Below are positions 1 to 21,763 of a stretch of 64,000 nucleotides of DNA, piece after piece. Both the position numbers and the translations under genes were made by a program. Below the pieces are notes generated by a model. It made no database searches. It had not been told where the DNA came from and saw only the letters and a list, made by a program, of their open reading frames with translations. Numbering within the stretch: the first letter of the stretch is position 1; each line of letters begins with the position of its first letter. Origin of the DNA: Halosolutus halophilus (GTDB lineage: Archaea > Halobacteriota > Halobacteria > Halobacteriales > Natrialbaceae); the NCBI RefSeq assembly GCF_022869805.1, contig NZ_CP094974.1, forward strand, positions 3,410,001-3,474,000, read 5' to 3'.

Positions 1-349
1 TCTCCTCGGACCACGGCGTCAGGACCGCGTGGACCGCGTCCATCCCCTCGGCCGCGCTCGCGTCGACGTCGGTCACGTAGCCGTGTGGGATCTCGCTGCG
101 AACGACCGCGGCGTGTGCGAGGTCGGGGAACCGTTGCTCGTAATCGGCGGTGTACTTCGCCTGCCCGGTGACGAGTTTCGGATCGTCGTCTTTCTGGGCC
201 GGTCGCGAGACGCTGGCTCGCTCGTCGGGTTCCAGGTCGTTGTTCTCGGGTTCGTCCCACTCGAGGGGATGGTCCTCGAACTCGGGGGACTCCCTCTCCG
301 AACGCGATGCGGTACCGCCGTCGGGTTTCGGATCGTCTGGATCAGTCAT
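1..349 (-). CDS. Xanthine dehydrogenase family, molybdopterin-binding subunit (5' part only)
   Basis: This is the N-terminal 116 codons of a large gene that runs off the left edge. The start ATG at 349 overlaps the end of the 2Fe-2S subunit gene by 8 bases. After an acidic leader of about 45 residues comes the typical opening of the CO dehydrogenase/xanthine dehydrogenase large subunit: RPAQKDDDPKLVTGQAKYTADY, then a stretch ending VRSEIPHGYVTDVDAS. The subunit would carry the molybdenum cofactor and hydroxylate a purine or another N-heterocycle. Placement beside purine permeases, adenine deaminase, XdhC-YqeB, SelD and YqeC suggests a purine substrate and possibly a selenium-dependent cofactor (inference). 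The catalytic domain is outside the window, so the substrate cannot be read. Confidence 0.82.
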   Translation of the reverse strand, partial: MTDPDDPKPDGGTASRSERESPEFEDHPLEWDEPENNDLEPDERASVSRPAQKDDDPKLVTGQAKYTADYEQRFPDLAHAAVVRSEIPHGYVTDVDASAAEGMDAVHAVLTPWSEE

Positions 350-887
350 GCGTCTCACCGCTGCGTTCGGTCGCCTCTCGAGCGGTGGATGCGGGCGACG
401 TGCCGCCGTCCGTCGCGACGGTCCCGTCGCCGTTCATCCGCTCGGCGGCGTCGAGTATCGCTTCGACTGGTTTCTGGTAGCCGGTACACCGACACAGGTT
501 GTCGTCGATCGCCGCTCGAACGTCGGCTTCGCTCGGGTCCGGGGTCTCCTCGAGCAACGCTTTCGCCTGGATGATCATCCCCGGGATACAGAACCCACAC
601 TGGACCGCGAAGTGATCGACGAACGCCTGCTGGATCGGATGGAGGTCGTCCTGCGTGCCGAGGCCCTCGATCGTCCGGATGGACGCGCCGTCGGCCTCCC
701 GGACGGTCGTCCCGCAGGCCATCCGGGCGTCGCCCCCGATGAGTACCTTCGAGGCCCCGCAGACGCCGCCGTCACAGCCGCACTTCACGCCCGTGTAGCC
801 TTCGCGTCGCAACACCGACGCGAGGTTGTCCTCCGGCGCCGCGTCGACGTCCATCGATTCGCCGTTGACGGTCAGGGTGAACTGCAC
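342..887 (-). CDS. Xanthine dehydrogenase family, 2Fe-2S subunit (CoxS/XdhC-type small subunit)
   Basis: This 181-residue protein is the small electron-transfer subunit of a molybdenum hydroxylase. An N-terminal plant-type ferredoxin domain is followed by the helical [2Fe-2S] domain with QCGFC (Cys97, Cys100) and CRCTGYQ (Cys132, Cys134). The ferredoxin loop is unusual. The normal C-x4-C-x2-C pattern reads GCDGGVCGAS, so the third ligand position is Ser46, with Cys38 and Cys43 present, Cys58 as the distal ligand and an extra Cys36 just before. The start is GTG at 887, chosen because AGGAGG lies 7 bases upstream and the protein begins at the usual point. The C-terminal tail beyond about residue 150 is acidic and low-complexity. 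It overlaps the catalytic subunit gene and is surely co-transcribed with it. Confidence 0.9.
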   Translation of the reverse strand: MQFTLTVNGESMDVDAAPEDNLASVLRREGYTGVKCGCDGGVCGASKVLIGGDARMACGTTVREADGASIRTIEGLGTQDDLHPIQQAFVDHFAVQCGFCIPGMIIQAKALLEETPDPSEADVRAAIDDNLCRCTGYQKPVEAILDAAERMNGDGTVATDGGTSPASTAREATERSGETHD

Positions 888-1790: not shown

Positions 1791-1796
1791 TTATAT
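1791..1796 (+). promoter_or_regulatory. TATA box for the AzgA-type permease, probable leaderless start
   Basis: TTATAT at 1791-1796 lies 26-31 bases before the ATG at 1822. That is the spacing expected when transcription begins at the start codon. There is no Shine-Dalgarno before 1822. This supports 1822 over the two in-frame ATG codons upstream. Confidence 0.55.
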
Positions 1797-1821
1797 GATG
1801 ATATGGTGTGGCATGGCGTAT

Positions 1822-3219
1822 ATGTCAGATTCAACTGGCACGAACTCCCGGCTGGGGGAGTACTTCGGATTCGACGAGCACGGGACCGATCTGAAGACGG
1901 AACTGCTCGCGGGGATGACGACGTTCCTCACGATGTCGTACATCATCATCGTGAATCCCGCGATCCTCTCCGAAGCGATCCAGATCGAAGGCTACTCTCA
2001 GCAGGAGGTATTCCAGATGATCGCTATCGCGACCATTCTGGCGTCCGCCGTCGCCATCCTGGTGATGGCCTTTCACGCGAATCGACCGTTCGGATTGGCC
2101 CCGGGAATGGGGTTGAACGCGTACTTCGCGTTCACGGTCGTGATACTACTCGGCGTCCCCTGGCAAACGGCGCTCGCGGCCGTGTTCGTCGAGGGCGTGA
2201 TATTCATGGGCCTGACGTATTTCGGCGCGAGACGGTACATCATCGAGTTGTTCCCGGCACCGGTCAAGTTCGCCGTCGGTGCGGGTATCGGGTTGTTCCT
2301 GCTGTTGCTCGGTCTCATCGAGATGAACGTCATCGTCCAGTACGAAGCGACGATGGTTCAGTTGAACGACGTTGCGACGGATCCCGTCGCACTCGTCGCA
2401 CTCGCGGGACTCGCGTTCACGTTCGTTCTGTACGCACGCGATATTACCGGTGCGATCATCATCGGGATCATCACGACGGCGATCGCGGGGTGGGCGCTCA
2501 CGCTCGGCGGGGTCGTCGATCGGGGCGTCCTCGCACCGGCGGAACTCGCCTCCCCTCAGTACGATATCACGCCGCTTGCCGGGGCCTTCCTCGATGGCTT
2601 CGGTCAGATCGACCCGGCGACGTTCGTTCTGATCGTGTTCACGTTCTTCTTCGTCGACTTCTTCGACACCGCCGGAACGCTGATCGGCGTCTCACAGTTC
2701 GGCGGCTTCCTCGACGAGGACGGTGACCTGCCGGAGATAGAGAAGCCGCTGATGGCCGACGCGATCGGGACGACGTTCGGTGCGATGGTCGGGACGTCGA
2801 CGGTGACGACGTTCATCGAGAGTTCGACCGGGATCGAAGAGGGCGGGCGGACGGGCATGACGGCGCTCACAGTCGGCGTCCTGTTCCTGCTCTCGCTCGT
2901 GGCCGTGCCGCTGATCGCCGCGATTCCGCAGTACGCGTCGTACCTCGCACTGGTGGTCGTCGGGATCATCATGCTCCAGGGCGTGACGGACATCGACTGG
3001 GAGGACCCGGCCTGGCTCATCTCGGGCGGACTCACCATCACCGTGATGCCGCTCACGGCCTCCATCGCGAATGGGCTGGCGGCGGGGATCATCAGCTACC
3101 CGATCATCAAAGCGACGATGGGGGAAACGGACGACATCCACCCCGGCCAATGGGTCCTGGCCGCGGCCTTCGTGCTCTACTACTACGTCTCGGCTGGCGG
3201 CGTGATATCCGGAACGTGA
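1822..3219 (+). CDS. NCS2 family permease, AzgA/PbuG type (adenine/guanine/hypoxanthine)
   Basis: This 465-residue integral membrane protein has about 12-14 predicted transmembrane helices. It carries hallmarks of the AzgA-like branch of NCS2 transporters: TELLAGMTTFLTMSYIIIVN near the N terminus, GLAPGMGLNAYF, FFFVDFFDTAGTLIGV and GTSTVTTFIESSTGIEEGGR. Known members import adenine, guanine or hypoxanthine with protons. The start at 1822 (MSDSTGTNS) is supported by a TATA box 26 bases upstream. It precedes a second, unrelated NCS2 permease and adenine deaminase on the same strand, so nucleobase uptake followed by adenine deamination is the likely role. The exact substrate cannot be told from sequence. 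Confidence 0.9.
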   Translation: MSDSTGTNSRLGEYFGFDEHGTDLKTELLAGMTTFLTMSYIIIVNPAILSEAIQIEGYSQQEVFQMIAIATILASAVAILVMAFHANRPFGLAPGMGLNAYFAFTVVILLGVPWQTALAAVFVEGVIFMGLTYFGARRYIIELFPAPVKFAVGAGIGLFLLLLGLIEMNVIVQYEATMVQLNDVATDPVALVALAGLAFTFVLYARDITGAIIIGIITTAIAGWALTLGGVVDRGVLAPAELASPQYDITPLAGAFLDGFGQIDPATFVLIVFTFFFVDFFDTAGTLIGVSQFGGFLDEDGDLPEIEKPLMADAIGTTFGAMVGTSTVTTFIESSTGIEEGGRTGMTALTVGVLFLLSLVAVPLIAAIPQYASYLALVVVGIIMLQGVTDIDWEDPAWLISGGLTITVMPLTASIANGLAAGIISYPIIKATMGETDDIHPGQWVLAAAFVLYYYVSAGGVISGT

Positions 3220-3393: not shown

Positions 3394-4779
3394 ATGTCAT
3401 CCAACGATGGGTCCATCGAACTGGCGTACGAGTTAGAAGAGAAACCGCCGACGCTCAAGGCGATCTTCCTGGGCTTGCAACACGTCTCGGCGATGTTCGT
3501 CCCGACGATCGCAGTGGCCATCATCGTCGCCGGAGCGATCGGGACCGGTGGCGCAGACACGACCTACCTCATACAGATGGTCCTGATCTTCTCCGGGCTG
3601 GCGACGCTCGTTCAGGTGTTCCCGATCGGACCGGTCGGGGCGCGACTCCCCATCGTAATGGGATCGAGTTTCGCGTTCGTCGGTGCGGCGATAGCCATCG
3701 GCGGGCAGTACGGTCTCGACGCCGTCTTCGGTGCGATCATCATCGGCGCCCTGGTCGAGATCCTCATCGGCTGGCAGTATCAGCGGGTCAAACAGCTGTT
3801 TCCACCGCTGGTCACCGGCCTCATCGTCATGATCCTGGGTCTGTACCTGATTCCGGTCGGGATGGACTACATGGCCGGCGGAGCCGACGCTGCCGATTAC
3901 GGTGCGTACCACCACCTCGGCCTCGCCTTGCTCGTCCTGGCTATCACCGTCGGTATGAACCTCTTCATGGAGGGAATCTGGCGACTCCTCAGCATTCTCA
4001 TCGGGATCGTCGTCGGCTACGTCGTCGCCGTTGCCATCGGCATCGTCGACTTCTCCACGGTCGCGGACGCGAGTTGGTTCGCACTTCCGGTGCCCGGTCG
4101 ATTCGGGTTCGCGTTCGAACCGATCGCCGTCCTGACGTTCACCGCGATTCACATCACGGCTGCGATCGAATCGATCGGCGATATGTCCGGTATCACGGCC
4201 GCAGAGGGCCGTACTCCGGACGATTCCGAAATTCGCGGCGGCCTGTTCGTCGACGGTCTCGGCAGTTCACTCGGCGCCGTCTTCGGAGCGTTCCCGCTGA
4301 CGACGTTCTCACAGAACGTCGGCATCATCAATTTCACCGGCGTGATGAGCCGGTACGTGGTCGGCATCAGTGGTGCCGTGCTGCTGGCGCTCGGTTTCAT
4401 TCCGAAGGTCAGTGCCGTCGTCGCGACGATTCCCCAGGCCGTTCTCGGCGGTGCGGTGATCGTCATGTTCGGGATGGTGATGGCGAGCGGTCTTCGGCTC
4501 ATCTTCCTGAACGAACGCATGAATCGGCGGAACATGGTCATCATCGCCGTCTCGATCGGTCTCGGCCTCGGCGTCGAAGTCCGACCCGAGATATTCGAGG
4601 CGATGCCCAGGGGCGTGACCATCTTCTTCGGCAACGCCATAATCATGACCGCTCTCTGTGCGGTCCTGCTCAACTCTCTCGTCCCGCGCCCGGACGGAGA
4701 CTACGAGATGGGACTCGAGGAACCGGTCGACGGCGACCAGCCGTCGCCCGCCGAACGCTCTGCCGTGCAGGAAGACTAA
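3394..4779 (+). CDS. NCS2 family permease, nucleobase-ascorbate type (uracil/xanthine/urate)
   Basis: This 461-residue membrane protein belongs to the nucleobase-ascorbate transporter branch of NCS2, distinct from the AzgA-type gene before it. Visible signatures are the LQHVSAMF motif in helix 1, the PIGPVGARLPIVMGSSFAFV stretch, and the AAIESIGDMSGI motif holding the substrate-contacting Glu of helix 8. It is followed by LTTFSQNVGIINFTGV in place of the usual family signature. Family members take up uracil, xanthine or uric acid. Beside a xanthine-dehydrogenase-type enzyme, xanthine or urate is the best guess (inference). A 174-base gap separates it from the upstream permease and may hold its own promoter near 3350-3360. 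Confidence 0.9.
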   Translation: MSSNDGSIELAYELEEKPPTLKAIFLGLQHVSAMFVPTIAVAIIVAGAIGTGGADTTYLIQMVLIFSGLATLVQVFPIGPVGARLPIVMGSSFAFVGAAIAIGGQYGLDAVFGAIIIGALVEILIGWQYQRVKQLFPPLVTGLIVMILGLYLIPVGMDYMAGGADAADYGAYHHLGLALLVLAITVGMNLFMEGIWRLLSILIGIVVGYVVAVAIGIVDFSTVADASWFALPVPGRFGFAFEPIAVLTFTAIHITAAIESIGDMSGITAAEGRTPDDSEIRGGLFVDGLGSSLGAVFGAFPLTTFSQNVGIINFTGVMSRYVVGISGAVLLALGFIPKVSAVVATIPQAVLGGAVIVMFGMVMASGLRLIFLNERMNRRNMVIIAVSIGLGLGVEVRPEIFEAMPRGVTIFFGNAIIMTALCAVLLNSLVPRPDGDYEMGLEEPVDGDQPSPAERSAVQED

Positions 4780-4894: not shown

Positions 4895-6565
4895 ATGAAT
4901 CGCGTCGACACACTCGTTCGAGGGACGCTCGTCAACGTCAACACGGGCGTGCTCGAGGACCGCGCGATCGCCATCGACGACGGGGACGTGGTCGCACTCG
5001 AGGAGCGGCCGGCGGACCGCGAACTCGAGGCCGAATACGTCGCACCGGGACTGATCGACGCACACAAACACGTCGAATCGAGCATGGTCACGGTGCCACA
5101 GTACGGCGAAGCGATGGTTCCTCGCGGGGTCACCAGCATCGTCCACGACCCCCACGAGATCGCGAACGTCCTCGGCGTCGACGGCGTCCGGGCCGCCTTC
5201 GAGGACGCGACGAAAACGCCGTTGAAGGTCCGGTTTAGCGTTCCCTCGAGCGTTCCCGCTTCGAACCTGCAAGACGGCGGAGCCACGCTCGACGCGGACG
5301 ACGTCGCGGCGTTACTCGATCACGAACACGTCGTCGCACTCGGCGAGGTGATGGACCTCCCGGCACTGGTTTCGGGCGATTCGGACCTTCACGCGAAGAT
5401 CCGCGCCGCCCGAGAGCGCGGGTTGACCGTCGACGGGCACCTCCCTCGGGTGTCCGGATCGGACCTGCAGGAAGCCGCACGCTACCTCGACACCGATCAC
5501 GAGAGCATCACCGAGGCCGAGGCACGCGAGAAAGTCGATCTCGGATTCCGGGTCTACCTTCGCGAAGGGTCGTCGTCGAAGAACCTCGCCGATCTCGTCG
5601 GCCTCGTCGACGACGTCCCCACGCGTCGGCTGTCGCTGTGTTCGGACGATCGAGACGTGGTCGATCTGGTCGAAAACGGCGGCGTCGACTTCGCAGTGCG
5701 AAAGGCGATCGACGAAGGCGTCGACCCGGTCGAGGCCGTACAGATGGCGACGCTGAACACGGCGGAGAGCTACGATCTCCCGTTCGGGCGGATCGAACCC
5801 GGCGCGCCGGCCGATCTGGTGCTGCTCGAGGATCTCGAGACGTGGTCCGTCGATCGCGTTCTCGTCGACGGGCAACTCGATCCCACGCGTACCGATCGCG
5901 ATCCGCCGGCGACCGCGCTTTCGACGGGCACCGTCGACTTCGATCCAGTCACGGGGCGTGACCTGGCGCTCGATGCGCCGAAATCGCCGGCGGAGCGCGC
6001 CACCGTCCGCGTGCTCGAACTCACCGGCGGAATCCAGACGGGACGCGCGGAGGCGTCACTTCCCGTCGGGGACGGCACGATCGAACCGATGCCCGATGAC
6101 GACGTGCTCGCGATGGCGGTTATCGAGCGACACGGACGCGACGCCGGTATCGGTCGCGGCTTCGTCCGCGGACTCGGCCTGGAGCGCGGGGCGATCGGGT
6201 CGACGGTCGCCCACGACGCGCACAACTGCGTCGTCGCCGGCACGGCGTTCGACGCGATGGCTCGAGTTGCGAACCACCTCCGGGACATCGACGGTGGCGT
6301 CGCCGTGTGCGATCCGGAACGGGACGGCGAGGAGATTGCGGCGGTTCCCCTTCCGGTCGCGGGTCTGATGTCCGACGACCCGCTGACCGACGTCTGCGAG
6401 CGGTTCAAGTCGGTCGTCGCTCGGGCGGAAGCCCTCGGGCTCGGCCGGCACGGACTGATGACCCTCTCGTTTCTCGCACTCGAAGTGATCCCCGAGTATC
6501 GGCTGACGAATCGGGGACTGGTCGACGTCGAGCGCTGGGAACACGTCGACGTCGTGATCGAGTGA
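4895..6565 (+). CDS. ade: Adenine deaminase
   Basis: This 556-residue amidohydrolase converts adenine to hypoxanthine and ammonia. The metal-site strand reads APGLIDAHKHVESSMV and is followed by the family-specific VHDPHEIANVLGVDGV. Later motifs match too: DGHLPRVSGSDL, TDHESITEAEA, LCSDDRD and the VRKAIDEG helix. The C-terminal region (TVAHDAHNCVVAGT, VAGLMSD) is the typical adenine deaminase C-terminal domain. A purine-rich CGGAGGG sits about 20 bases before the ATG. The product feeds hypoxanthine to Hpt (13325-13876) or to the molybdenum hydroxylase at the left edge. It probably shares transcription with the permease ahead of it (115-base gap). Confidence 0.93.
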   Translation: MNRVDTLVRGTLVNVNTGVLEDRAIAIDDGDVVALEERPADRELEAEYVAPGLIDAHKHVESSMVTVPQYGEAMVPRGVTSIVHDPHEIANVLGVDGVRAAFEDATKTPLKVRFSVPSSVPASNLQDGGATLDADDVAALLDHEHVVALGEVMDLPALVSGDSDLHAKIRAARERGLTVDGHLPRVSGSDLQEAARYLDTDHESITEAEAREKVDLGFRVYLREGSSSKNLADLVGLVDDVPTRRLSLCSDDRDVVDLVENGGVDFAVRKAIDEGVDPVEAVQMATLNTAESYDLPFGRIEPGAPADLVLLEDLETWSVDRVLVDGQLDPTRTDRDPPATALSTGTVDFDPVTGRDLALDAPKSPAERATVRVLELTGGIQTGRAEASLPVGDGTIEPMPDDDVLAMAVIERHGRDAGIGRGFVRGLGLERGAIGSTVAHDAHNCVVAGTAFDAMARVANHLRDIDGGVAVCDPERDGEEIAAVPLPVAGLMSDDPLTDVCERFKSVVARAEALGLGRHGLMTLSFLALEVIPEYRLTNRGLVDVERWEHVDVVIE

Positions 6566-6661: not shown

Positions 6662-7033
6662 ATGATCCACGTCGGGTTCTTGCTCACCGGCGGTCCCTTC
6701 GATAGCGAACGGTGGCGCACCGCCTACGAACTCGGGCGTGCGGCACTCGACGCCGGTCACGAGGTCACGTACTTTCACTATCTCGACGGCGCGTACGTTC
6801 CGGTCGCCGACCAGCGCCTCCCCGACTGTTCGGACGCGGGACTGTACGACGAGATGCCGACCGAGAAGTTTCAGGAGTTGATCGCCGACGGTGCGGACGT
6901 GATCTGTTGCGGGCTATGCGTCAACGCGCGGGGTATCGACGCCGAGACCGATTACCCGGACGGCGTCGAGGTCGGCTTGCTGCCGGATCTCGCGGACACG
7001 ATCGGCGAGGCCGACAGGGTGATCTCGCTATGA
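6662..7033 (+). CDS. DsrE/TusD-like sulfur (or selenium) relay protein
   Basis: This 123-residue protein has the DsrE-like fold. It opens with MIHVGFLLTGGPFDSERW, has a YELGRAALDAGHEV helix-turn, and carries the Cys segment CCGLCVNARGI (Cys82, Cys83, Cys86) where TusD/DsrE carry their persulfide-bearing cysteine (C-V-x-A-x-R-G). In TusBCD and DsrEFH this subunit accepts persulfide sulfur from TusA. Its stop overlaps the next start (ATGA), and three more genes follow in the same operon, ending with an XdhC-YqeB fusion. It therefore probably serves molybdenum hydroxylase maturation rather than tRNA thiolation (inference). No dsrAB genes are nearby. Confidence 0.75.
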   Translation: MIHVGFLLTGGPFDSERWRTAYELGRAALDAGHEVTYFHYLDGAYVPVADQRLPDCSDAGLYDEMPTEKFQELIADGADVICCGLCVNARGIDAETDYPDGVEVGLLPDLADTIGEADRVISL

Positions 7034-7383
7034 AACGGGACGTCGTCGTCGTGCTCACGCGAACGCCGTACGGACGGGTCCACGTCCCGGAGGGCCTCCG
7101 GGCGGCACGCGGCGTCGCGGCCGGGTTCGATCGACACGACGTCTCGGTCGTGTTCACGCAGGACGGCGTCTACGCCGCTCGCGCGGCCGTCGACAGAGAT
7201 GCGCTCAATATGACGGACCACCTCGCCGATCTGGCGGCGGAAGACGGGGACCTGTTCGTCGACGAAGCGTCGATGACGGCACGAAACGTCACGAGCGAGG
7301 AGATCGCCCCCGACGTCAGTATCCGGTCCGGCGAGGAGGTCGCATCGATGATCGAACGGGCGGATCACGCGCTCGACTTTTGA
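7030..7383 (+). CDS. DsrE-family protein, DsrF/TusC-like
   Basis: This 117-residue protein starts at the ATG of an ATGA overlap with the preceding gene. The fold pattern is DsrE-like: an opening strand VVVVLTRTPYGRVHVPEGLR, a helix of small residues (AARGVAAGF), then VSVVFTQDGVYAAR. It has no cysteine, as is common in the DsrF/TusC partner, which mainly has a structural role. Position between a DsrE-like and a DsrH-like gene supports an alpha2-beta2-gamma2-type complex (inference from known DsrEFH). Confidence 0.7.
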   Translation: MKRDVVVVLTRTPYGRVHVPEGLRAARGVAAGFDRHDVSVVFTQDGVYAARAAVDRDALNMTDHLADLAAEDGDLFVDEASMTARNVTSEEIAPDVSIRSGEEVASMIERADHALDF

Positions 7384-7385
7384 CA

Positions 7386-7631
7386 ATGCTCTATCTGATA
7401 GACGAACCGATGGCGGAGATCGGACGCAGAACCGCAGCGACCGACGCCGACGGCATCGTCGTCCTGATACAGGACGGCGTCCTGCTCAATCCGGATCTCG
7501 ACGTCCCGACGCTCGCGGTCGAACGGGACGTCGAGATGCGCGGCGCGAGCCTGCCCGATCGGATCGACACCGTCACGTACGACGAACTGATCGAACTCAT
7601 GGTCGACCACGAGGTGAGGAGTTTCGTATGA
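7386..7631 (+). CDS. DsrH/TusB-like protein
   Basis: This 81-residue protein begins MLYLIDEPMAEIG at the ATG at 7386. An in-frame TTG two codons earlier is less likely. It has the small DsrH/TusB pattern: an N-terminal strand, then a segment reading GIVVLIQDGVLLNPDL, where DsrH/TusB normally has a V-L-L-x-D-A/G-V strand, then a second alpha-beta pair ending in IELMVDHEVRSFV. The Cys found in many DsrH proteins is absent. It lies 2 bases after the DsrF-like gene and overlaps xdhC-yqeB by ATGA, so all four are translationally coupled. Confidence 0.65.
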   Translation: MLYLIDEPMAEIGRRTAATDADGIVVLIQDGVLLNPDLDVPTLAVERDVEMRGASLPDRIDTVTYDELIELMVDHEVRSFV

Positions 7632-9205
7632 CGCTGTTCGATCGCGTGGACGACCTCGTCGAACGGGGCCGACCGGCCGCGATGCTGACGGTCGTCGACA
7701 AAGATGGCAGCGCACCGCGGGACGTCGGGGCGAAGATGCTCGTGACCGAAGACGACGCGTTCGGCACGATCGGCGGCGGGACGGTCGAGGGACTCGCCGT
7801 CGACGAAGCCCGTGACGTCCTCCGAGGTGATGCGGAGCCGGGAGTCCGGACGTACGAACTGCGACCCGGTGGCAACACGGGGATGGTCTGTGGCGGCTCT
7901 ATGGACGTCTTCGTCGATCGGATCCGCGGCCGCTCCCGGCTCTACGTTGCGGGTGGCGGACACATCGCGGTCGAACTCGCGGCGATGGGCGGACGGCTCG
8001 GCTACGACGTCACCGTCGTCGACGACCGCGACGAGTACGCGTCCCCGGAGCGGTTTCCCGCGGCGACCGACGTCGTTCACGATGACTACGACGAGGCGCT
8101 CGCCGGGCTCCCGATGACGTCGGAAACGGCGGTCGCCGTCGCGACGCGAAGCGGCACGTTCGACCAGCAGGCCGTCGCCGCTGCACTCGACGGCGGTGCC
8201 GGCTACGTCGGCGTCGTCGCCAGCGAGGACAAGGCCGCACACATCGTCGACTCGTTGCTCGAGGACGGCTACTCGCGTCGCGAACTCGTTCGCGTTCGCT
8301 CGCCCGTCGGTCTCGATCTCGGCGGTGGCGGGCCAGAAGACGTCGCGCTCTCGACCCTCGCCGAAATCCACCGCGATCGCCACGGAGCGACCGGCGAGCG
8401 CGCGACCCGCGAGAACCTCGAGGATCTCATCGTCGTCCGGGGCGGCGGCGACCTCGGGACCGGCGTGGTCTACCGCCTCCAGCAGGCCGGGTTTCCGGTC
8501 GTCGTCACCGAGACGGCTCAGCCGACCGTCGTCCGTCGCGAAGTCGCGTTCGGGGCGGCGATGTACGAAGACGACGTCACCGTCCAAGGCGTGACGGGCC
8601 GTCGCGTCGACGACGTGGACGAGGCGATCGCCGTTCTCGCCGACGACGCGGTCCCCGTCCTCGAGGATCCGACCGCCGCCATCGTCGACGAACTCGAGCC
8701 CGGGGTGGTCGTCGACGCGATCATGGCGAAAGGGAAGGCAGACACCGGAACTCGGAGGGATCTCGCCGACGTCGTCGTCGGTCTCGGACCGGGGTTCGAG
8801 GCCGGCGAGAACGTGGACGCGGTCGTCGAAACCGATCGGGGACACGAACTCGGACGCGTCATCTACGACGGTAAACCGAGTCCGTACGACGGCGAACCGG
8901 GTGACCGACGGGGATACACGCACGAACGCGTCCTGCGGGCACCGAGCGACGGCGAGTGGTCACCGGCGGTCGAAATCGGCGACGTCGTCGAGGCGGAGTC
9001 GATCGTCGGCCACGTCGACGACGATCCGGTCGTCACGGAGATCGGGGGGCTAGTCCGGGGACTCGTCCACGAGGGCGTCCCCGTCTCCACGGACGCGAAA
9101 CTCGGCGACGTCGACCCTCGCGAGGACGTCGATCACGCGAAACTCTCGGACAAAGCGCTCTGTCTCGGCGGCGGCGTCCTCGAGGCGGTGCTCAAACTCT
9201 CGTAG
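7628..9205 (+). CDS. XdhC-YqeB fusion, molybdenum hydroxylase maturation factor
   Basis: This 525-residue protein has two parts. Residues 1 to about 255 are XdhC/CoxI-like: DKDGSAPRDVGAKMLV, GTIGGGTVEG, a VCGGSMDVFVD segment, a Rossmann strand RLYVAGGGHIAVELA, and a C-terminal SPVGLDLGGGGPEDVALS. XdhC proteins bind and sulfurate the Mo cofactor for insertion. Residues about 266-525 match the YqeB family of the selenium-dependent molybdenum hydroxylase system: VVRGGGDLGTGVVYRLQQAG, TETAQPTVVRREVAFG, VVDAIMAKGKADTG and VGLGPGFEAGENVDAVVET. The two activities are normally separate genes. It is the last gene of the operon that begins with the DsrEFH-like trio and converges on selD. The fusion supports one dedicated maturation machine. 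Confidence 0.85.
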   Translation: MTLFDRVDDLVERGRPAAMLTVVDKDGSAPRDVGAKMLVTEDDAFGTIGGGTVEGLAVDEARDVLRGDAEPGVRTYELRPGGNTGMVCGGSMDVFVDRIRGRSRLYVAGGGHIAVELAAMGGRLGYDVTVVDDRDEYASPERFPAATDVVHDDYDEALAGLPMTSETAVAVATRSGTFDQQAVAAALDGGAGYVGVVASEDKAAHIVDSLLEDGYSRRELVRVRSPVGLDLGGGGPEDVALSTLAEIHRDRHGATGERATRENLEDLIVVRGGGDLGTGVVYRLQQAGFPVVVTETAQPTVVRREVAFGAAMYEDDVTVQGVTGRRVDDVDEAIAVLADDAVPVLEDPTAAIVDELEPGVVVDAIMAKGKADTGTRRDLADVVVGLGPGFEAGENVDAVVETDRGHELGRVIYDGKPSPYDGEPGDRRGYTHERVLRAPSDGEWSPAVEIGDVVEAESIVGHVDDDPVVTEIGGLVRGLVHEGVPVSTDAKLGDVDPREDVDHAKLSDKALCLGGGVLEAVLKLS

Positions 9206-9254
9206 CACCGGTCGCTCGCCTGCAGTGTTCGGCACGGATCGATCGGCGTGACTG

Positions 9255-10283
9255 CTACCCGCGAACCCGTTCGATCGTCGGATCGACCAGCGCCGCGCCG
9301 GTACCGGTAGTGACGCGGCCGACCTCGCGATGGAAAACGCCGGCGGCCGAGAGGGAATCCTCGAACGCATCGGTCCGCCGTTCCGGGACCGACAGCAACA
9401 GCCCACCGCTCGTTTCCGCGCTCTCGCCGTCCTCGAGACCGTAGCCGAAGAGCTGTGAGAGTTCGAGGGTCCCCTCGATGACGGGGAGGTGCGTGAGTTC
9501 GACGCCGACGCCGGCGCTCTCGGCGAGGACGCGAGCCTGTCCGAGGAGGCCGAACCCCGTGACGTCTGTCGCGGCCGTCGCGTACTCGCGGGCCGCGAGC
9601 ATCGCGGCCCTGTTCGGCGTCGTCATCCACGCGAGCGCCTCGTCGGCGACGGTCCCGACGGGACGGGGCGTCGTTTCGGCGATCGTCTCGCCGAACTCTC
9701 CGTCCTGTACTCGAAGGGCGCCCATCGCCGCCTGGGTCCCGAGGGGTTTCGTCAGGTACAGGTACTCGGACGGCGACGCGTCGCTCATCCGTAGCAGGTG
9801 CTCGGGCGACGCGGTCGCGGCGACGGTTCCCCCGGCGATCGGCCACGGGTTCATGATGGTGTGGCCACCGGCGACGACGCCACCCATGTCCTCCACCGCG
9901 TCGACGATACCGCCCAGAATCTCCGTGGCCGCGTCCGTTACCTCCCGCGGGAGGCCGAGCACGACGAGAAACGTCAGATCGTCGCCGGCGCCCGACGCGA
10001 AGGCGTCGCTGGCGGCGTTACACGCGGCGACGCGACCGAATTCGTACGGATCGTCCACGATCGGCGTGAAGAAATCGATCGTCGTCACGAGACTGCGATC
10101 GTCGCCGATCGAACGGGCGCTCGCGTCCTCACCGACGCCGAACTGCAGTTCCGCCTGTGCACCCGACAACCCGACGTCGGCGAGCAGCGAGTCGAGGTCG
10201 TCCTGACCGACCTTGCACGAGCAGCCGTGGAGGTCCGCGTATTCGGTCAGCGCCGGCGAGCGATCGTCTCCCTCGTCAGTCAT
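9255..10283 (-). CDS. selD: Selenide, water dikinase (selenophosphate synthase)
   Basis: This 342-residue SelD makes selenophosphate from selenide and ATP. The catalytic loop reads HGCSCKVGQ, keeping the Cys and Lys of the bacterial GCGCK site with Ser in the middle. Other family motifs are VTTIDFFTPIVDDPYEFGRV, ACNAASDAFASGA and AGGHTI, with an ATDVTGFGLLGQ segment in the C-terminal half. No selenocysteine codon or SECIS is implied, since the catalytic residue is Cys. The gene overlaps a TusA-like gene by 8 bases and faces xdhC-yqeB. SelD without Sec machinery beside yqeB and yqeC is the signature of the selenium-dependent molybdenum hydroxylase trait (established knowledge); absence of selA/selB cannot be judged from one window. 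Confidence 0.93.
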   Translation of the reverse strand: MTDEGDDRSPALTEYADLHGCSCKVGQDDLDSLLADVGLSGAQAELQFGVGEDASARSIGDDRSLVTTIDFFTPIVDDPYEFGRVAACNAASDAFASGAGDDLTFLVVLGLPREVTDAATEILGGIVDAVEDMGGVVAGGHTIMNPWPIAGGTVAATASPEHLLRMSDASPSEYLYLTKPLGTQAAMGALRVQDGEFGETIAETTPRPVGTVADEALAWMTTPNRAAMLAAREYATAATDVTGFGLLGQARVLAESAGVGVELTHLPVIEGTLELSQLFGYGLEDGESAETSGGLLLSVPERRTDAFEDSLSAAGVFHREVGRVTTGTGAALVDPTIERVRG

Positions 10284-10536
10284 CGGCCCCCTCCGATCGG
10301 TTCGAATCCGCGGGTGGACGAATCAGCAACTCGAAACCGCCATCGGCGTCTTCGGGTGTCGGTCGGTCCTCGACCTCGTATCCGCGTTTCGTACACGTTC
10401 GGCGAAGATTGCTCTCGGCCGGCGGATAGTCACCACGAACGAGCAGTTCGTCGTCCCGATCGAGTTCGGATAGCCGCCGACGGACGATGAGAGCGGGACG
10501 CGGACACACTTCTCCGGTGACGTCCACACGTTCCAT
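10276..10536 (-). CDS. TusA/SirA-family sulfur (selenium) carrier, coupled to selD
   Basis: This 86-residue protein starts MERVDVTGEVCPRPALIVRR. The CPxP motif (Cys11) is the TusA-family persulfide site. A second Cys lies in RRTCTKRGYEVED (Cys48), replacing the usual hydrophobic position. The tail is short and acidic. The ATG at 10536 gives the standard TusA length. Its end overlaps the selD start by 8 bases, so the two are translationally coupled. In bacteria, YedF (TusA joined to a DsrE domain) goes with orphan selD. Here the TusA part sits with selD while the DsrE part lies in the facing operon. Selenium or sulfur delivery to SelD or the Mo cofactor is the likely role (inference). Confidence 0.85.
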   Translation of the reverse strand: MERVDVTGEVCPRPALIVRRRLSELDRDDELLVRGDYPPAESNLRRTCTKRGYEVEDRPTPEDADGGFELLIRPPADSNRSEGADD

Positions 10537-10656
10537 ACGGTAGCCTACCGAGGCTGTCCGAATAATTGTATCGCCGCCGCCAGGTCGCCCCCACCACCCG
10601 TCCGCGGCATCCGTTCTCGCCGTAACGCTCATCCCGCCAGCCGGTGAGGTCCAGAT

Positions 10657-11409
10657 ATGAATCTCGCCGACGGGCTCGGCCTCGGAGCCGAGGAACTCGT
10701 CTCGTTCGTCGGTGCCGGCGGAAAAAAGACCGCCATGGGGCACCTGGTCGCAGCGGCGGGTGATCGCGGACTCGACGCGGGCTACACCACGTCGACGCAC
10801 ATGCCGCCGCCGACGGATCTCCCGCTCGTTCTCGCCGACCCCGACCGCGTTCGGACCGTACTGGACGACGAGACGGCGCCGATCGCGCTGGCGAGCGACC
10901 ACGTCGCCGATCCGGACCGCGTCGACGAGAAAGTTCGAGGCTACGAGCCCGCCGTCCTGAGTTCGCTGTTTCGAGACGGGGACCTCGACTGGCTCCTCGT
11001 CAAAGCCGACGGAGCCAGAATGCGCGAATTCAAGGCGCCGGGGCCGGACGAACCGCCCATTCCCCGGGCGAGCACGTGCGTCGTCCCGGTCGCGTCCGTG
11101 CAGGCCGTCGGCCAGTCACTCACGGACGACGTCGCCCACCGCGTCGATCGGATCGAACGCTGTACCGATACCGCCGAGGGGGAGCGGATCACGCCAGAAA
11201 CCGTTGGCCGAGTACTTGCGCATCCTGCTGGTGGGCGAAAGAACGTCCCCGACGACGCGACGATCGTCCCGCTCGTCAACAAGGCGGACGACGACGCTCT
11301 CGAAAGACGTGCGGAGGAAGTCCTCTCGGCGGCGTTCGAGCACACCACGCGGTTCGATCGGGGGCTCATCTCCTCGTTCGAGACGAATCGGCTCACAGTC
11401 GTCCCGTGA
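10657..11409 (+). CDS. yqeC: YqeC-family selenium-dependent molybdenum hydroxylase accessory protein
   Basis: This 250-residue protein matches the YqeC family. It has a P-loop-like VSFVGAGGKKTAMGHL near residues 15-30, a GYTTSTHMPPP segment, DWLLVKADGARMREFKAPG and a late PLVNKADDD that resembles a nucleotide-specificity loop. YqeC occurs almost only in genomes with the selenium-dependent molybdenum hydroxylase trait, where it is thought to act in cofactor maturation; its biochemistry is not settled. GGTGAGGT about 8 bases before the ATG serves as a ribosome binding site. It is divergent from the tusA-selD pair, with 120 bases between, and converges on a histidine kinase gene. Confidence 0.88.
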   Translation: MNLADGLGLGAEELVSFVGAGGKKTAMGHLVAAAGDRGLDAGYTTSTHMPPPTDLPLVLADPDRVRTVLDDETAPIALASDHVADPDRVDEKVRGYEPAVLSSLFRDGDLDWLLVKADGARMREFKAPGPDEPPIPRASTCVVPVASVQAVGQSLTDDVAHRVDRIERCTDTAEGERITPETVGRVLAHPAGGRKNVPDDATIVPLVNKADDDALERRAEEVLSAAFEHTTRFDRGLISSFETNRLTVVP

Positions 11410-14421: not shown

Positions 14422-15651
14422 TCAGTTTTGGAGTTCGACGGCGGCTTGGTTCAGCCTCGCCGCGATCCGGGTCGCAGCAGTCCGGAGGTGATCGCGGGCG
14501 GCACCGCCGTCGGTTCGGAGCGCGATCGGAGGTGCCCTGTCGGCCCCCGTCCGCTCCTCGTGAGTGCGGGGCAACTGGAGGCGACCGACGAGCGGGACGT
14601 CGATGCCGGGCGGACGCTCCGGATCACCGTCGCTGTCTTCCGTTCCGACGCCCGAGTCGAGTGGAATCCGCCCCAGAATCGGGACGTCGAACTGGTCGGC
14701 CAGGTCGTCGGCACCGCCGGTCCCGAAGATGTCGTGAACCCCTTCACAGTCCGGACACTCGAACCCGGCCATGTTCTCGACGATACCAAGCACTGGCGTG
14801 TCGTAGCGCGCGAACCCGACCAGTCCGCGAGCGGCGTCGTCGACCGCGACTTCCTGGGGAGTGGTCACGATGACGGTCCCGGCGACGGGGATGTGCTGCA
14901 CCAGCGAGAGGTGTACGTCTCCCGTTCCCGGGGGCAAGTCGACGATCAGGTAATCCAGTTCACCCCACTGCACGTCGCCGACCAGTTGCTTGACGAACTC
15001 GTCGACGAGCGGGCCGCGCCAGATAACCGGGTCGTCCTCGCCGGCGACGAACCCCATACTCATCGTCCGGACGCCGTAGGTATCTCGAGGGACCATCTGG
15101 TCGTCGGTCGTCGCGTCGGGTTGTCGCTCGTCGAGGCCGAGGAGCGTCGGCGCGTTCGGGCCGTACACGTCGGCGTCGAGCAGGCCGACGGCCGCGCCCG
15201 TGTCCGCCAGCGCGACCGCGAGGTTCGCCGCGACGGTACTCTTGCCGACGCCGCCCTTGCCCGACGCGACGGCGACGACGTTCTTCACGTCGGGGAGCGT
15301 GTCGATGCGCTCTCCCGGATCGGCGGCGCTGGCCCGGAAGCCGACTTCGACCGCCTCGACGCGCTCGACGGACTCGGCGGCCGCCGCCACGCCCGCGGCG
15401 AGGTGCTCGCGGAGCGTCTCGCTCGGCACGGGGAGCGATACCTCGACCGACGCCACGCCGTCGCGCACGACGACGTCGCCGACGCCATCGATCGACGCGA
15501 GGTCGGCGTGGAGTTCGTCCTGCCCCACGTCCGCCGAGGCGATGGCCTCCCGGACGGCCGCGGCGGCATCGTCCCGCCGATCGGCGTGGGACGGCGCTGT
15601 GGCCCCACCGTCGACCCTCTCCGATTCGGACGCGTCGTCGGAGTCACCCAT
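14422..15651 (-). CDS. Mrp/NBP35-family ATPase, Fe-S cluster carrier
   Basis: This 409-residue protein has an N-terminal MIP18/DUF59-like domain (about 30-110), then a ParA-type ATPase with the deviant Walker A SGKGGVGKSTVAAN at 130-143, LLDADVYGPNAP, and DYLIVDLPPGTGDVHL. A VENMAGFECPDCEG segment supplies the CxxC used by Mrp/ApbC proteins to bind a bridging [4Fe-4S] cluster. Known relatives transfer Fe-S clusters to target enzymes. It starts 6 bases after the stop of the molybdopterin oxidoreductase gene and is the last gene of that operon. It probably loads or maintains the five or more clusters of the complex (inference). The C-terminal 60 residues are disordered-looking. Confidence 0.9.
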   Translation of the reverse strand: MGDSDDASESERVDGGATAPSHADRRDDAAAAVREAIASADVGQDELHADLASIDGVGDVVVRDGVASVEVSLPVPSETLREHLAAGVAAAAESVERVEAVEVGFRASAADPGERIDTLPDVKNVVAVASGKGGVGKSTVAANLAVALADTGAAVGLLDADVYGPNAPTLLGLDERQPDATTDDQMVPRDTYGVRTMSMGFVAGEDDPVIWRGPLVDEFVKQLVGDVQWGELDYLIVDLPPGTGDVHLSLVQHIPVAGTVIVTTPQEVAVDDAARGLVGFARYDTPVLGIVENMAGFECPDCEGVHDIFGTGGADDLADQFDVPILGRIPLDSGVGTEDSDGDPERPPGIDVPLVGRLQLPRTHEERTGADRAPPIALRTDGGAARDHLRTAATRIAARLNQAAVELQN

Positions 15652-15657
15652 CGTCAG

Positions 15658-18600
15658 TCAGTCCCCGTCCCGCGGGCCGAACTCGTCCGGGTCCCATCGC
15701 TCCTCCCGGCCGACCGGGCCGTCCATGTACCAGGCGTCGTCCTCGTCGGGGTCGGTCGGCGGGGCGATCGGTCGCTTGAGCCACTTCGGCCGGCGCTTGC
15801 CGTCCGGCCCACCGGCCGGTCGGGTCTCCTCGACCCACTCGCGGTAGATTTCCATGGACCGATCGGTATCGACGTAGACGTCGCCGTAGTAGTCGTCCGG
15901 CTTCGCCGGCCGGACCCGGACCTTCTGGTGCCAGCAGTGCATCCCCGAGATGGGGTCGGGATGGGGCGCGTGCGTGAGGTTCTGCGGGACGCCCCCGTCG
16001 GTCCACCAGACCCGGGCGGAGTCGGGGTCGTCGCTGTCGAAGGGACCGATGCCGGACTGCTGGCGCATCCCCCAGCTGCTGTCATCGTCTTTCAGGTCGA
16101 CCGTGACCTTCCCGTAGGGGTCGCCGCCCTCGTCGAAGTCCCCTTCGGCCTCGCCGTCGCCGTCGCGGTCGATCTTCCACTGGCCCATGTGGTGGCTCAT
16201 CGCGGCGATCCCGGGTTTGATGGACTCGGTGACCCACACCTCGTTGACGTAGTAGCCGATGTCGGTCTCCACGCGCACGAGGTCGCCCGTCTCGACCCCC
16301 AGTCGCTCGGCGTCTTTGCTGTGGAGCCAGACGGGGTTGTTGTGCGAGATTTCCTCTAGCCACTTGGAGTTCGACGATCGGGAGTGGATCTGGGTCGGTA
16401 ACCGGAAGGTGGGCACCAGCACCATCTCGCCGTCGTCGTAGTCGATGTTCTCGGGGTGGACGTGGCTCTTCAGGTAGTGGGGAATGGTGTACTCCTCGTC
16501 GTCCCAGCCCCACTCCGCGAGCGTCTTCGAGTAGAACTGCTGTTTGCCGGTCGGGGACGGGAACCCGCGTTTCGGTTCGCCGTCCACCATCACGCCTAGC
16601 ACCTGGGTGTCGACGTCCGAGAGTCCGCCGTGGGGAATCGTGTCGTACCCGCCGGGGTAGTCAGAGCCCTCGTCGATTTCGGCCGACTCCGCCGCCCCGT
16701 CGGGAATCGAGACGTCGGCGTCCTCGTCCAGTACACGGTGGATGGTCCCGTACTCGTCGACGAACACGTCGTCTTCCTCGAGGAGTGCCGGATCGAGCGG
16801 CTCCTCGTGGAGTTCGTACTCGTTCCGGCTGGCCTCGAACGCCCCGTGGTGTTTCATGTACTCCAGGGGCTCCATACCGGCCTCCTCGGCGGCCTCGACG
16901 AGGTTCTCCTCGTGCTCGAAGATGTAGCGGTAGTACTCGTCGATGGTCATCTGGGGCGGTTCGTCCGTGGCCCCGTCAGTGCCCGTCGCCTCCCGATCGG
17001 CCGCGCCGTCGTCCCGCTGTTCGGTCGTGCCGCCGTTCGCCGCGGACGTCTCCCGATCGCGGTAGGGGCTCTCGAAGTACTCCCGGATTCCCAGTTCGCC
17101 GTCCTCGTCGATGCGCCAGGAGAGGTCCATCCAGAACTCGTCTTCCTCCCAGACCTCGCCCGGATTCGCCTCGTAGGTGCGCTCGATGTCCGCGCCCTCG
17201 CGCTCGGCGTATTCCCGCTGGACGGGCTGTCGGTAGGTGACCCACGTCGCGGCGTGGGTCTCCTGGCTCTGGATGTCGTGGCGCTCGGGGCTGTGGCCCA
17301 TCGGCAGGACGTAGTCGGCGAAGTACGCCGTCTCGTTCCAGGTGGGCGTCAGCGCGACGTGCATCCCGACCTTGTCCTCGTCGCTCAGCGCCTCGATCCA
17401 GGAGAACCCGTCGGGGTAGGTGTAGACGGGGTTGAACACGCGGGTGAAGTAGACCGACAGCTTCCCGCGACCCTCCTTGAGGAAGTACGGCAGAAGCTGG
17501 CTCATCTCGTAGTGGGCGAACGGCCACTCCGGCGGCAACTGGAGTTCGTCCCAGAGCTTCTGGCGCGGCGGCTCCTTCGGCATCTCCGGCTCGAACTGGT
17601 GCCAGGCGTTGGGCGAGGTGCCGCCCTTCGTGCCGACGCTCCCGGTGAGCACGGACAGGAAGTGCAGCGTGCGACTGACCTGCCAGCCGCCCCTGTTCCC
17701 CGACGCCGCAGAGCGCCAGATGTGGCTGGCGAACCGGTCGCCGGCGAGACCGATCTTCCGGCCGACCTTCTCGATGGTGGCGGCGTCGACGCCGCTCTCC
17801 GCCTCGACGTACGCCGGCGTGAAGTCCGCGTACGTCTCCCGGAGCACGTCGAGGTACGTCTCGAACGTCCGCTCGCGTCCGTGGTGTTCCTCGTCGAGGA
17901 ACTGCCGCCAGTTCACCCAGTTGCGGAGGAACTCCTCGTCGTAAAGCCCCTCCTCGAGGATGACGTTGGCCATCGCTAGCAGAACCGCGGCCTCGCTGCC
18001 GGGCTGAGTGGGCAGCCAGTAGTCCGACATGGCGGCCGTGTTCGACAGCCGCGGATCCAGAACCGCGAGCTGGCCCCCTTCCATGACGCCCTCGATGATG
18101 CGCTGGGCGTGCGGGTTGAAGTAGTGGCCGGACTCCAGGTGGGCGGACAGCAGCAGGATAAACTCGGCGTTGGCGAAGTCCGCACTCGGCCGATCGTACT
18201 TGTGCCAGAAGGCGTAGCCCGCCCTGGCGCCCGACGAGCAGATGTTCGTGTGGGAGTTGTGGCCGTCGACCCCCCAGGCGTTGATGACCCGGTCCATGTA
18301 CCCCTCGTGGCCGGGCCGGCCGACGTGATAGGTGATCTCGTTCTCGCGGTCGTCCTCGATGGTCTCGCGCATCTCGGAGGCGATGTCATCGAGGGCGTCG
18401 TTCCAGGAGACGCGGGTCCACTCGCCGCTCCCGCGCGGCCCGTCCCGCTTGAGCGGATAGCGGATACGCTGGGGATCGTTGATCTGGTTGATAGTGGCCG
18501 GCCCCTTCGCGCAGTTGCGCCCCCGGCTTCCGGGGTGTTCGGGATTGCCCTCTATCTTGCGTATCTCGCCGGTCTCCTTGTCGATATAGGTCAGCAGACC

Positions 18601-18858
18601 GCAGCCTGCCTCGCAGTTGAAGCAGGCCGTGGGGACGACCGAGTACTCCTTCGGGAGGCCCTCGGACTCGTACTCGACCCAGTCGTGCCACTGCTCGGGG
18701 TCTGGGTAGGAGCCGAGTTCGCCCTCCGGGGCGATGCGGTCGATGCCGTCCACGCCGCGGCGCTGTCGTTGCTTCTTCGTCTCCTCGGTGCGGTTCGAGA
18801 TGACGCCGAGTCGCTCGGCGACTTTCTCTATGCGGCTCGGTTCGAATTCGTGTCCCAT
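15658..18858 (-). CDS. Molybdopterin oxidoreductase, SoeA-like (sulfite-oxidising or polysulfide/tetrathionate-type) catalytic subunit
   Basis: This 1066-residue enzyme belongs to the DMSO reductase family. The N-terminal [4Fe-4S] site is C79-x2-C82-x3-C86 with C116 in GSRGRNCAKG. The segment GHNSHTNICSSGARAG (about 199-214) holds Cys207, the likely Mo ligand. I recognise this stretch and the following LESGHYFNPHAQRIIEG from the SoeA/PSRLC3-type group. There is no Tat signal, so the enzyme is probably cytoplasmic, as in SoeABC. Residues about 600-640 form an inserted low-complexity acidic stretch. The ATG at 18858 lies 2 bases after the stop of the Fe-S/NrfD gene. TusA and DsrE genes next door point to sulfur chemistry. 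Polysulfide, tetrathionate or thiosulfate reductase activity cannot be excluded. Confidence 0.72.
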   Translation of the reverse strand: MGHEFEPSRIEKVAERLGVISNRTEETKKQRQRRGVDGIDRIAPEGELGSYPDPEQWHDWVEYESEGLPKEYSVVPTACFNCEAGCGLLTYIDKETGEIRKIEGNPEHPGSRGRNCAKGPATINQINDPQRIRYPLKRDGPRGSGEWTRVSWNDALDDIASEMRETIEDDRENEITYHVGRPGHEGYMDRVINAWGVDGHNSHTNICSSGARAGYAFWHKYDRPSADFANAEFILLLSAHLESGHYFNPHAQRIIEGVMEGGQLAVLDPRLSNTAAMSDYWLPTQPGSEAAVLLAMANVILEEGLYDEEFLRNWVNWRQFLDEEHHGRERTFETYLDVLRETYADFTPAYVEAESGVDAATIEKVGRKIGLAGDRFASHIWRSAASGNRGGWQVSRTLHFLSVLTGSVGTKGGTSPNAWHQFEPEMPKEPPRQKLWDELQLPPEWPFAHYEMSQLLPYFLKEGRGKLSVYFTRVFNPVYTYPDGFSWIEALSDEDKVGMHVALTPTWNETAYFADYVLPMGHSPERHDIQSQETHAATWVTYRQPVQREYAEREGADIERTYEANPGEVWEEDEFWMDLSWRIDEDGELGIREYFESPYRDRETSAANGGTTEQRDDGAADREATGTDGATDEPPQMTIDEYYRYIFEHEENLVEAAEEAGMEPLEYMKHHGAFEASRNEYELHEEPLDPALLEEDDVFVDEYGTIHRVLDEDADVSIPDGAAESAEIDEGSDYPGGYDTIPHGGLSDVDTQVLGVMVDGEPKRGFPSPTGKQQFYSKTLAEWGWDDEEYTIPHYLKSHVHPENIDYDDGEMVLVPTFRLPTQIHSRSSNSKWLEEISHNNPVWLHSKDAERLGVETGDLVRVETDIGYYVNEVWVTESIKPGIAAMSHHMGQWKIDRDGDGEAEGDFDEGGDPYGKVTVDLKDDDSSWGMRQQSGIGPFDSDDPDSARVWWTDGGVPQNLTHAPHPDPISGMHCWHQKVRVRPAKPDDYYGDVYVDTDRSMEIYREWVEETRPAGGPDGKRRPKWLKRPIAPPTDPDEDDAWYMDGPVGREERWDPDEFGPRDGD

Positions 18859-18860
18859 AA

Positions 18861-20657: not shown

Positions 20658-20931
20658 CTCCGTTGAGTCATGGCAACGATCAACATGCGATCGGGAGTAT
20701 ACTTAAAGCTTGTGCGAATTGTACAATATACCGAATACAGAACACTTCGTCTGGGTACGGCTCGGAACGGATGCGCGGACCGACGGCAACCGATCGAGAA
20801 CCTCCGTCAGAAACGAACATTAGAACCACGAATACCGGTATCTGTGGTTGAGACTATCACCCATTTTTCAACAATACGAATCTTTATTGTCTTGTACACG
20901 AGAGAAATATTGTGCGAGGTTGGCAAGACAC
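20658..20931. promoter_or_regulatory. AT-rich divergent control region between the Mo-enzyme operon and the tusA-dsrE operon
   Basis: On the minus strand TTTAAGTATA near 20697-20708 is a TATA candidate for the Fe-S/NrfD gene. On the plus strand AAATATT at 20905-20911 is placed about 25 bases before the tusA ATG. The region contains a perfect palindrome TTGTACAA at 20719-20726, a related TTGTACA at 20892-20898, and TTGTGCGA at 20710-20717 and 20910-20917. An 11-base word CTTGTGCGAAT (20709-20719) recurs upstream of hpt at 13130-13140. Such elements could be operators for a redox or sulfur regulator (inference). Confidence 0.5.
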
Positions 20932-21192
20932 ATGAGTACGGAACACAGAGTCACCGAAACGCTCGACGTGAAAGGACTGAACTGTCCGATGCCAGTCGTC
21001 AAGGCGAAGCAGGCGGTAGACGGCCTCGAATCGGGAGACGTCCTCGAGATCGTCGCGACGGACCCCGGGAGCGTATCCGACATCGAGGGATGGGCGAACG
21101 CGACGGGCAGCGTAAAACTCCTCGAACAGGACGAGACCGACGAGGACGGCGAGACCGTCTACCGACACTACGTCCGGAGGACAGACGCATGA
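20932..21192 (+). CDS. TusA-family sulfur carrier protein
   Basis: This 86-residue protein has the TusA fold and the active-site motif LNCPMPVVKAK with Cys18 in CPxP. It would carry persulfide sulfur between a sulfur donor and acceptors such as DsrE proteins. The ATG at 20932 gives a standard length and follows a TATA-like AAATATT at about -25. An upstream in-frame extension shows no family similarity. The stop overlaps the next start (ATGA). It is distinct from the selD-linked TusA at 10276-10536, sharing little beyond the CPxP motif. Grouped with DsrE2 and DsrE it resembles the TusA-DsrE2 sulfur-trafficking sets of sulfur-oxidising prokaryotes. Confidence 0.92.
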   Translation: MSTEHRVTETLDVKGLNCPMPVVKAKQAVDGLESGDVLEIVATDPGSVSDIEGWANATGSVKLLEQDETDEDGETVYRHYVRRTDA

Positions 21193-21761: not shown

Positions 21762-21763
21762 CC

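Follow-up and report, generated by a model that had tools for sequence, protein, structure and literature searches.

A haloarchaeal locus for selenium-dependent molybdenum hydroxylase maturation with a candidate DsrEFH-TusA chalcogen carrier

How does selenium reach the cofactor of a molybdenum hydroxylase? Its insertion has been called the least understood of the selenium pathways, including whether selenophosphate is the donor; in Clostridioides difficile, selD and yqeB mutants share a purine growth defect, and the genetics are less supportive for YqeC (PMC11448449). The question is raised by a 64,000-nucleotide stretch of DNA, hereafter the window, covering positions 3410001-3474000 of the single-contig, 5.06 Mb genome of the haloarchaeon Halosolutus halophilus. 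A block of seven genes at 6662-11409 of the window combines the genes of the selenium-dependent molybdenum hydroxylase (SDMH) trait with relatives of the DsrEFH and TusA sulfur carriers. Our best reading of the block is a haloarchaeal variant of SDMH maturation, and we consider it probable that its products synthesize and install the labile selenium ligand of two molybdenum hydroxylases of the purine type, using a dedicated DsrEFH-TusA chalcogen carrier.

Selenium trait genes and an orphan SelD

Searches with NCBIfam, Pfam and profiles recovered every component that a preliminary description of this DNA had named, that is SelD, YqeB, YqeC, XdhC, the DsrE/F/H-like trio and TusA, and all seven reading frames of the block are real genes by NCBIfam and Pfam. 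Lengths are in amino acids (aa).

6662..7033, + strand: DsrE-like protein, 123 aa, with a CGLC motif (C83, C86); PF02635, 71 bits
7030..7383, + strand: DsrF/TusC-like protein, 117 aa; TIGR03010, 41.7 bits; PF02635
7380..7631, + strand: DsrH/TusB-like protein, 81-83 aa; TIGR03011, 24 bits
7628..9205, + strand: XdhC-YqeB fusion, 525 aa, XdhC at 1-250 and YqeB at 268-524; TIGR03309, 338 bits (cut-off 220)
9255..10283, - strand: SelD, selenophosphate synthetase, with a GCSCK active-site motif; TIGR00476, 257 bits (cut-off 125)
10276..10536, - strand: TusA-like protein, 86 aa, with CPxP Cys11 and Cys48; PF01206, 55 bits
10657..11409, + strand: YqeC, 250 aa; TIGR03172, 178 bits (cut-off 73); PF19842, 107 bits

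Curated cut-offs are exceeded by SelD, XdhC-YqeB, YqeC, TusA and DsrE (those of Pfam for the last two). XdhC and YqeB form a single fused gene, whose XdhC_CoxI and XdhC_C domains lie above the Pfam gathering scores, and SelD, for which matches to SelD structures in the Protein Data Bank (PDB) were found, has an invariant C21 and K24 in an alignment of 39 sequences. The plus-strand series DsrE-DsrF-DsrH-XdhC/YqeB faces the minus-strand pair SelD-TusA across a short gap between SelD and YqeB, in the two facing operons previously described, and YqeC (+) diverges from TusA. Overlaps of 4 nucleotides (nt) at the DsrE/DsrF, DsrF/DsrH and DsrH/XdhC-YqeB junctions suggest translational coupling; between TusA and SelD the overlap is 8 nt.

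The markers of the trait, SelD, YqeB and YqeC together with a molybdenum hydroxylase, are all present at the locus. In the complete genome neither SelU (TIGR03167) nor SepSecS (PF05889) has a match, and all candidates for tRNA-Sec fall below the gathering score; SelD is therefore an orphan, and selenocysteine or selenouridine use was rejected as the reason for its presence. A search for a selenocysteine pathway had been set beforehand as a check on the assignment of the locus to the SDMH trait, and with YqeB, YqeC and SelD above their cut-offs that assignment stands. Among the other uses of SelD that were tested none was found in the genome, the selenoneine genes SenA and SenB lying outside the genes searched. 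Because of the latter, SelD might serve selenoneine or an undescribed selenometabolite, with the link to the hydroxylase secondary, but we regard this as highly improbable, since SelD and YqeB occur in identical genomes and beside a hydroxylase.

As an archaeal trait, which the preliminary description had called rare, this is not new: of the two species in which an orphan SelD was first found, in 2008, one was Haloarcula marismortui (PMC2276186, Haft and Self; PMC2432076, Zhang et al.). The same papers listed its XdhC-YqeB fusion, YqeC, a MocA-like protein, a TusA/SirA-like protein and hydroxylases, and already pointed out the TusA adjacent to SelD (PMC2276186, PMC2432076), and Lin et al. (2015) placed all archaeal users of the selenium cofactor in the Halobacteriales (PMC5322559). 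What holds of the earlier interpretation is the trait itself, the orphan SelD and the membership of the relay proteins. The DsrEFH-like trio is discussed in neither 2008 paper (PMC2276186, PMC2432076), and we found no literature combining selD, DsrE and haloarchaea, although our coverage of subscription papers was poor and priority is not firmly claimed. With the selenium trait in archaea already known, the trio is the candidate addition to the pathway.

A DsrEFH-like trio that accompanies the trait

Against the equivalog models TIGR03012, TIGR03010 and TIGR03011 the trio scores 20, 42 and 24 bits, short of the cut-offs of 89, 94 and 49, and a single-sequence hidden Markov model of the DsrH-like protein gives a weak DsrH/TusB match (21.5 bits, gathering score 24.4). 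The profile of DsrE-like relatives finds solved DsrE/YchN proteins, with C83 aligned to the first cysteine of the YchN CxxC, that of the DsrF-like relatives finds DsrF (2hy5_B) at 4e-7, and an 11-sequence profile of the third protein recovers DsrH-like structures of TM0979 at 7.8e-9 and TusB (2d1p_C) weakly, at 0.1. Because relatives' profiles match solved proteins of all three kinds, we take the trio to be a true E-F-H set despite its scores below the TusD, TusC and TusB equivalog cut-offs.

Invariant in 39 of 39 sequences are the CGLC of DsrE (C83, C86), the CPxP Cys11 and Cys48 of TusA and one cysteine of XdhC, C88, while DsrF and DsrH have no conserved cysteine among the 39 aligned sequences, a pattern that fits a carrier function. 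DsrE is also the most conserved and slowest-evolving protein of the block, with a median identity to the window of 87%, compared with 72% for XdhC-YqeB and 66% for SelD. Further TusA-like genes occur: a second one in this genome (L009:8770-9333, genome about 3403770-3404333), with a shared GDYPPAE motif, lies beside the hydroxylases, and extra copies are found at the loci L064, L088 and L089.

Co-occurrence, which the preliminary description had named as a check, was surveyed in 392 genomes of the order, those sampled by the search tool. YqeB above cut-off, SelD above cut-off and full-length DsrE of at least 62% identity each occur in 33 genomes, and the three sets are identical, extending across 11 of 95 genera; the next DsrE match by score is a 34-aa fragment, after which identity falls to 36%. 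Since the block recurs in this many genomes, the locus is not a product of chance. Gene order is retained at 31 of 32 related loci, the 4-nt overlaps are found nearly everywhere, the trio overlapping XdhC-YqeB, and TusA adjoins SelD at all loci. At 25 of the 32, DsrE is preceded at 58-168 nt by a hydroxylase large-subunit gene in the same orientation, and in the Halodesulfurarchaeum-type locus (L019, L090) the trio, about 5 kb away beside a second hydroxylase, has been retained despite rearrangement. The identical genome sets, the fixed gene order and the 4-nt overlaps support the view that the sulfur-relay proteins belong to the selenium trait.

This distribution bears on the possibility that the trio and TusA synthesize tRNA 2-thiouridine, like TusABCD, and are accidental neighbours of the selenium genes. 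The nearest named equivalogs are TusD, TusC and TusB, but the scores are all under the equivalog cut-offs, and 359 of the 392 genomes do without the trio's DsrE, the 33 that have it being those with SelD and YqeB; a tRNA thiolation role for the trio was rejected on this distribution, and we give it very little chance. The relay genes might instead have a protective or sensing role, directed at excess selenide or perselenide, and no part in delivery, since CxxC proteins can be redox buffers and a redox or detoxification role has been proposed for YedF (PMC5322559). The operon-like coupling is to XdhC-YqeB and the apo-hydroxylase, not to transport or regulatory genes, which makes protection an improbable function.

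Hydroxylases, purine genes and the atom carried

The locus holds two Xdh-type Fe-S/large-subunit hydroxylase pairs, A and B, whose large subunits were found by a MoCoBD_1 search. The features between the hydroxylases and the block are as follows.

Genome 3407905-3410358, continuing upstream of the window, - strand: large subunit of molybdenum hydroxylase B, from the MoCoBD_1 search
342..887, - strand: 2Fe-2S subunit of molybdenum hydroxylase B, an Xdh-type Fe-S subunit by NCBIfam
1161-1703, - strand: RidA; TIGR00004 above cut-off
1795-3219 and 3394-4779, + strand: purine permeases, assigned solely on sequence and on homology across loci
4895..6565, + strand: adenine deaminase; TIGR01178, 471 bits (cut-off 472.5)

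The hydroxylase gene nearest to the block is the Fe-S subunit at 342-887 (-), at a distance of about 5.8 kb, in agreement with the 6 kb given earlier; the large subunit of hydroxylase B and both genes of the second pair are found immediately upstream of the window. Beyond the hydroxylases follow a 5'-deoxyadenosine deaminase-type amidohydrolase, an allantoate amidohydrolase-type gene, an allantoinase-like gene and the second TusA-like gene, and the adenine deaminase, permease and RidA neighbours recur near the block at other loci. Against the XdhA model (cut-off 780) the large subunits reach 648-655 bits, and against TIGR03311 (selenium-dependent xanthine dehydrogenase; equivalog cut-off 830) 283 and 259 bits. 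Because purine-catabolism genes surround the hydroxylases, their substrate is most likely a purine. No gene for a flavin adenine dinucleotide (FAD) subunit was recognised within 17 kb around the hydroxylases.

A natural control is provided by SelD-negative haloarchaea with a sister hydroxylase. Twenty such genomes (G203 and 19 others) carry one hydroxylase each, which shares about 61-66% identity with the two enzymes described above and is surrounded by purine genes. A plain XdhC-like gene, or none, was found nearby, and DsrE, YqeB and SelD are absent from these loci. A FastTree phylogeny of 87 large subunits resolves two SelD-positive clades, both of 33 sequences (local support 0.94 for one and 0.71 for the other), and one SelD-negative clade of 20 (support 1.0). 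In G203 (L091, contig 102, about 2200-2468), a genome without SelD and YqeB, codons 1-35 of DsrE are followed, in another frame, by part of XdhC, adjoining adenine deaminase and the SelD-independent sister hydroxylase, and we read this junction as the remnant of a lost block.

These relatives bear on the atom that the relay would carry. It may be sulfur, supplied either as a sulfido ligand of the molybdenum cofactor, later replaced by selenium through SelD/YqeB, or for a different step of this enzyme. XdhC-type maturation needs a sulfur donor, and none of the block's genes was recognised as a cysteine desulfurase. Moreover, the transfers that the cited papers describe for DsrEFH and TusA are all of sulfur, which was found only on DsrE Cys78 in Allochromatium vinosum DsrEFH (PMC3397948) and was passed, as a thiosulfate group, from a Metallosphaera DsrE protein to TusA (PMC4175335). 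We nevertheless regard a sulfur cargo as unlikely, because the SelD-negative sister hydroxylases have no trio, so that ordinary sulfuration of this hydroxylase type does not need one, and because the trio is gained and lost together with SelD. By this indirect argument, a selenium role is favoured over a sulfur role. In Methanococcus maripaludis, TusA and TusD transcripts rise by about 4.5 log2 on selenium depletion, a response that its authors left unexplained (PMC11097638).

The central part of hydroxylase A has as its closest PDB structure 3hrd, the nicotinate dehydrogenase of Eubacterium barkeri, a selenium-dependent molybdenum hydroxylase. Residues 353-356 of hydroxylase A (L009:9665-12157, -) read RHPM in the SelD-positive clades, in 3hrd and at two YqeB loci outside the order; the SelD-negative clade has RRPA or a similar sequence there, and xanthine oxidase has RHPF, so that RHPM is a lead only. 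A selenium-specific hydroxylase signature was sought and rejected: 18 positions separate both SelD-positive clades from the SelD-negative clade, without clear excess over the 27 and 13 of the other two patterns. At two loci from the same phylum outside the order (L128, L129; genomes G574, G566), YqeB scores 390-398 bits, XdhC is encoded separately, a MocA-like gene is present and the hydroxylase has three subunits, one of them an FAD subunit, with no DsrE trio or SelD within 16-18 kb (SelD was not checked genome-wide). Elsewhere in the window, 14422-22159 is a separate sulfur-type locus with two DsrE_2-type proteins (PF13686) and, by sequence-only calls, an Mrp-like ATPase, a large molybdoenzyme resembling the dimethyl sulfoxide reductase family and an Fe-S/NrfD-like fusion.

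A putative perselenide relay and known systems

The grouping of TusA with SelD, and of DsrEFH with XdhC-YqeB and the hydroxylase, favours an order in which SelD would produce selenophosphate, TusA and SelD would most likely be the first to capture or activate the chalcogen (TusA acting before or after SelD), and the DsrEFH-like complex would then relay it, via DsrE, to the cofactor. The cargo would most likely be selenium, bound in perselenide form to Cys83 of DsrE, and Cys86 would be the resolving thiol. XdhC-YqeB would hold the molybdenum cofactor, help to exchange or add the selenium ligand and hand the cofactor to the apo-hydroxylase, with the assistance of YqeC. The direction and order of transfer, selenium rather than sulfur as the atom carried, and selenium in the hydroxylases are what we infer from the observed gene identities, orphan SelD, gene order, overlaps, distribution, conserved cysteines and absence of the trio beside SelD-independent hydroxylases. 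A single-sequence structural model of XdhC-YqeB was unusable (predicted local distance difference test, pLDDT, 37); with 10 sequences (pLDDT 66) the XdhC half is recognised and matches the 2we8 and 3on5 folds, and the C-terminal YqeB part is too poor to interpret.

Several observations weigh against this proposal. The DsrH-like protein lacks Cys20 of A. vinosum DsrH, the residue of the sulfur-oxidiser type, and no DsrC/TusE onward acceptor was seen in the block (a genome-wide search was not made). The genes of the block are for the most part contiguous and plasmid-borne, so that joint transfer accounts for some of the co-occurrence; with genes that usually travel together, the SelD, YqeB and DsrE counts are not three independent observations, and the phylogenetic argument is weakened. 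The trio is absent near the bacterial YqeB loci examined and near two non-haloarchaeal archaeal YqeB loci, and is therefore not universally needed for the trait. Finally, for haloarchaeal members we found neither selenium measurements nor mutants. That the locus encodes a DsrEFH-type complex dedicated to selenium, forming with TusA a perselenide relay from SelD to XdhC-YqeB that supplies the missing carrier step as a counterpart of YedF, is a tentative proposal, which we rate somewhat below even. Present in all sampled SelD-bearing haloarchaea and gene-overlapped to the insertion factor, the trio is a specific candidate for the step of transfer, which is open to experiment in the cultured Haloarcula species that carry it.

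On H. marismortui pNG700 the identical block is found in the same order, including a DsrE-DsrE-hypothetical trio, the XdhC-YqeB fusion, SelD, TusA and YqeC. Both pNG700 hydroxylases run directly into the trio, whereas purine genes intervene in the window, and a MocA-like gene follows YqeC on pNG700 but not in the window. The nicotinate dehydrogenase 3hrd has the RHPM motif in common with hydroxylase A and differs in its subunit layout and from the purine context of the haloarchaeal locus. With A. vinosum DsrEFH and Escherichia coli TusBCD the trio has in common its make-up of three small paralogs, arranged E-F-H, and a conserved cysteine in the DsrE/TusD-type subunit. Unlike these complexes, it falls below all equivalog cut-offs, its DsrE has a CxxC as in YchN, it is without the DsrH cysteine discussed above and, in the block, without a recognised DsrC/TusE partner, and it is genetically linked to selenium genes. 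Bacterial YedF (TIGR03527), a TusA-DsrE fusion encoded beside selD (e.g. EF_2566), likewise ties TusA and DsrE domains to SelD, and the CGXC motif of its DsrE part (PMC5322559) is matched by the invariant haloarchaeal CGLC. In haloarchaea, by contrast, TusA and DsrE are separate genes and DsrE is accompanied by DsrF and DsrH; YedF was absent from archaea in the 2015 survey (PMC5322559). Against TIGR03527 (cut-off 110) the TusA of the window scores 28 bits and that of pNG700 33 bits, and DsrE has no match. These profile scores place neither protein in the YedF family; together, haloarchaeal TusA and DsrE may be its split counterpart.

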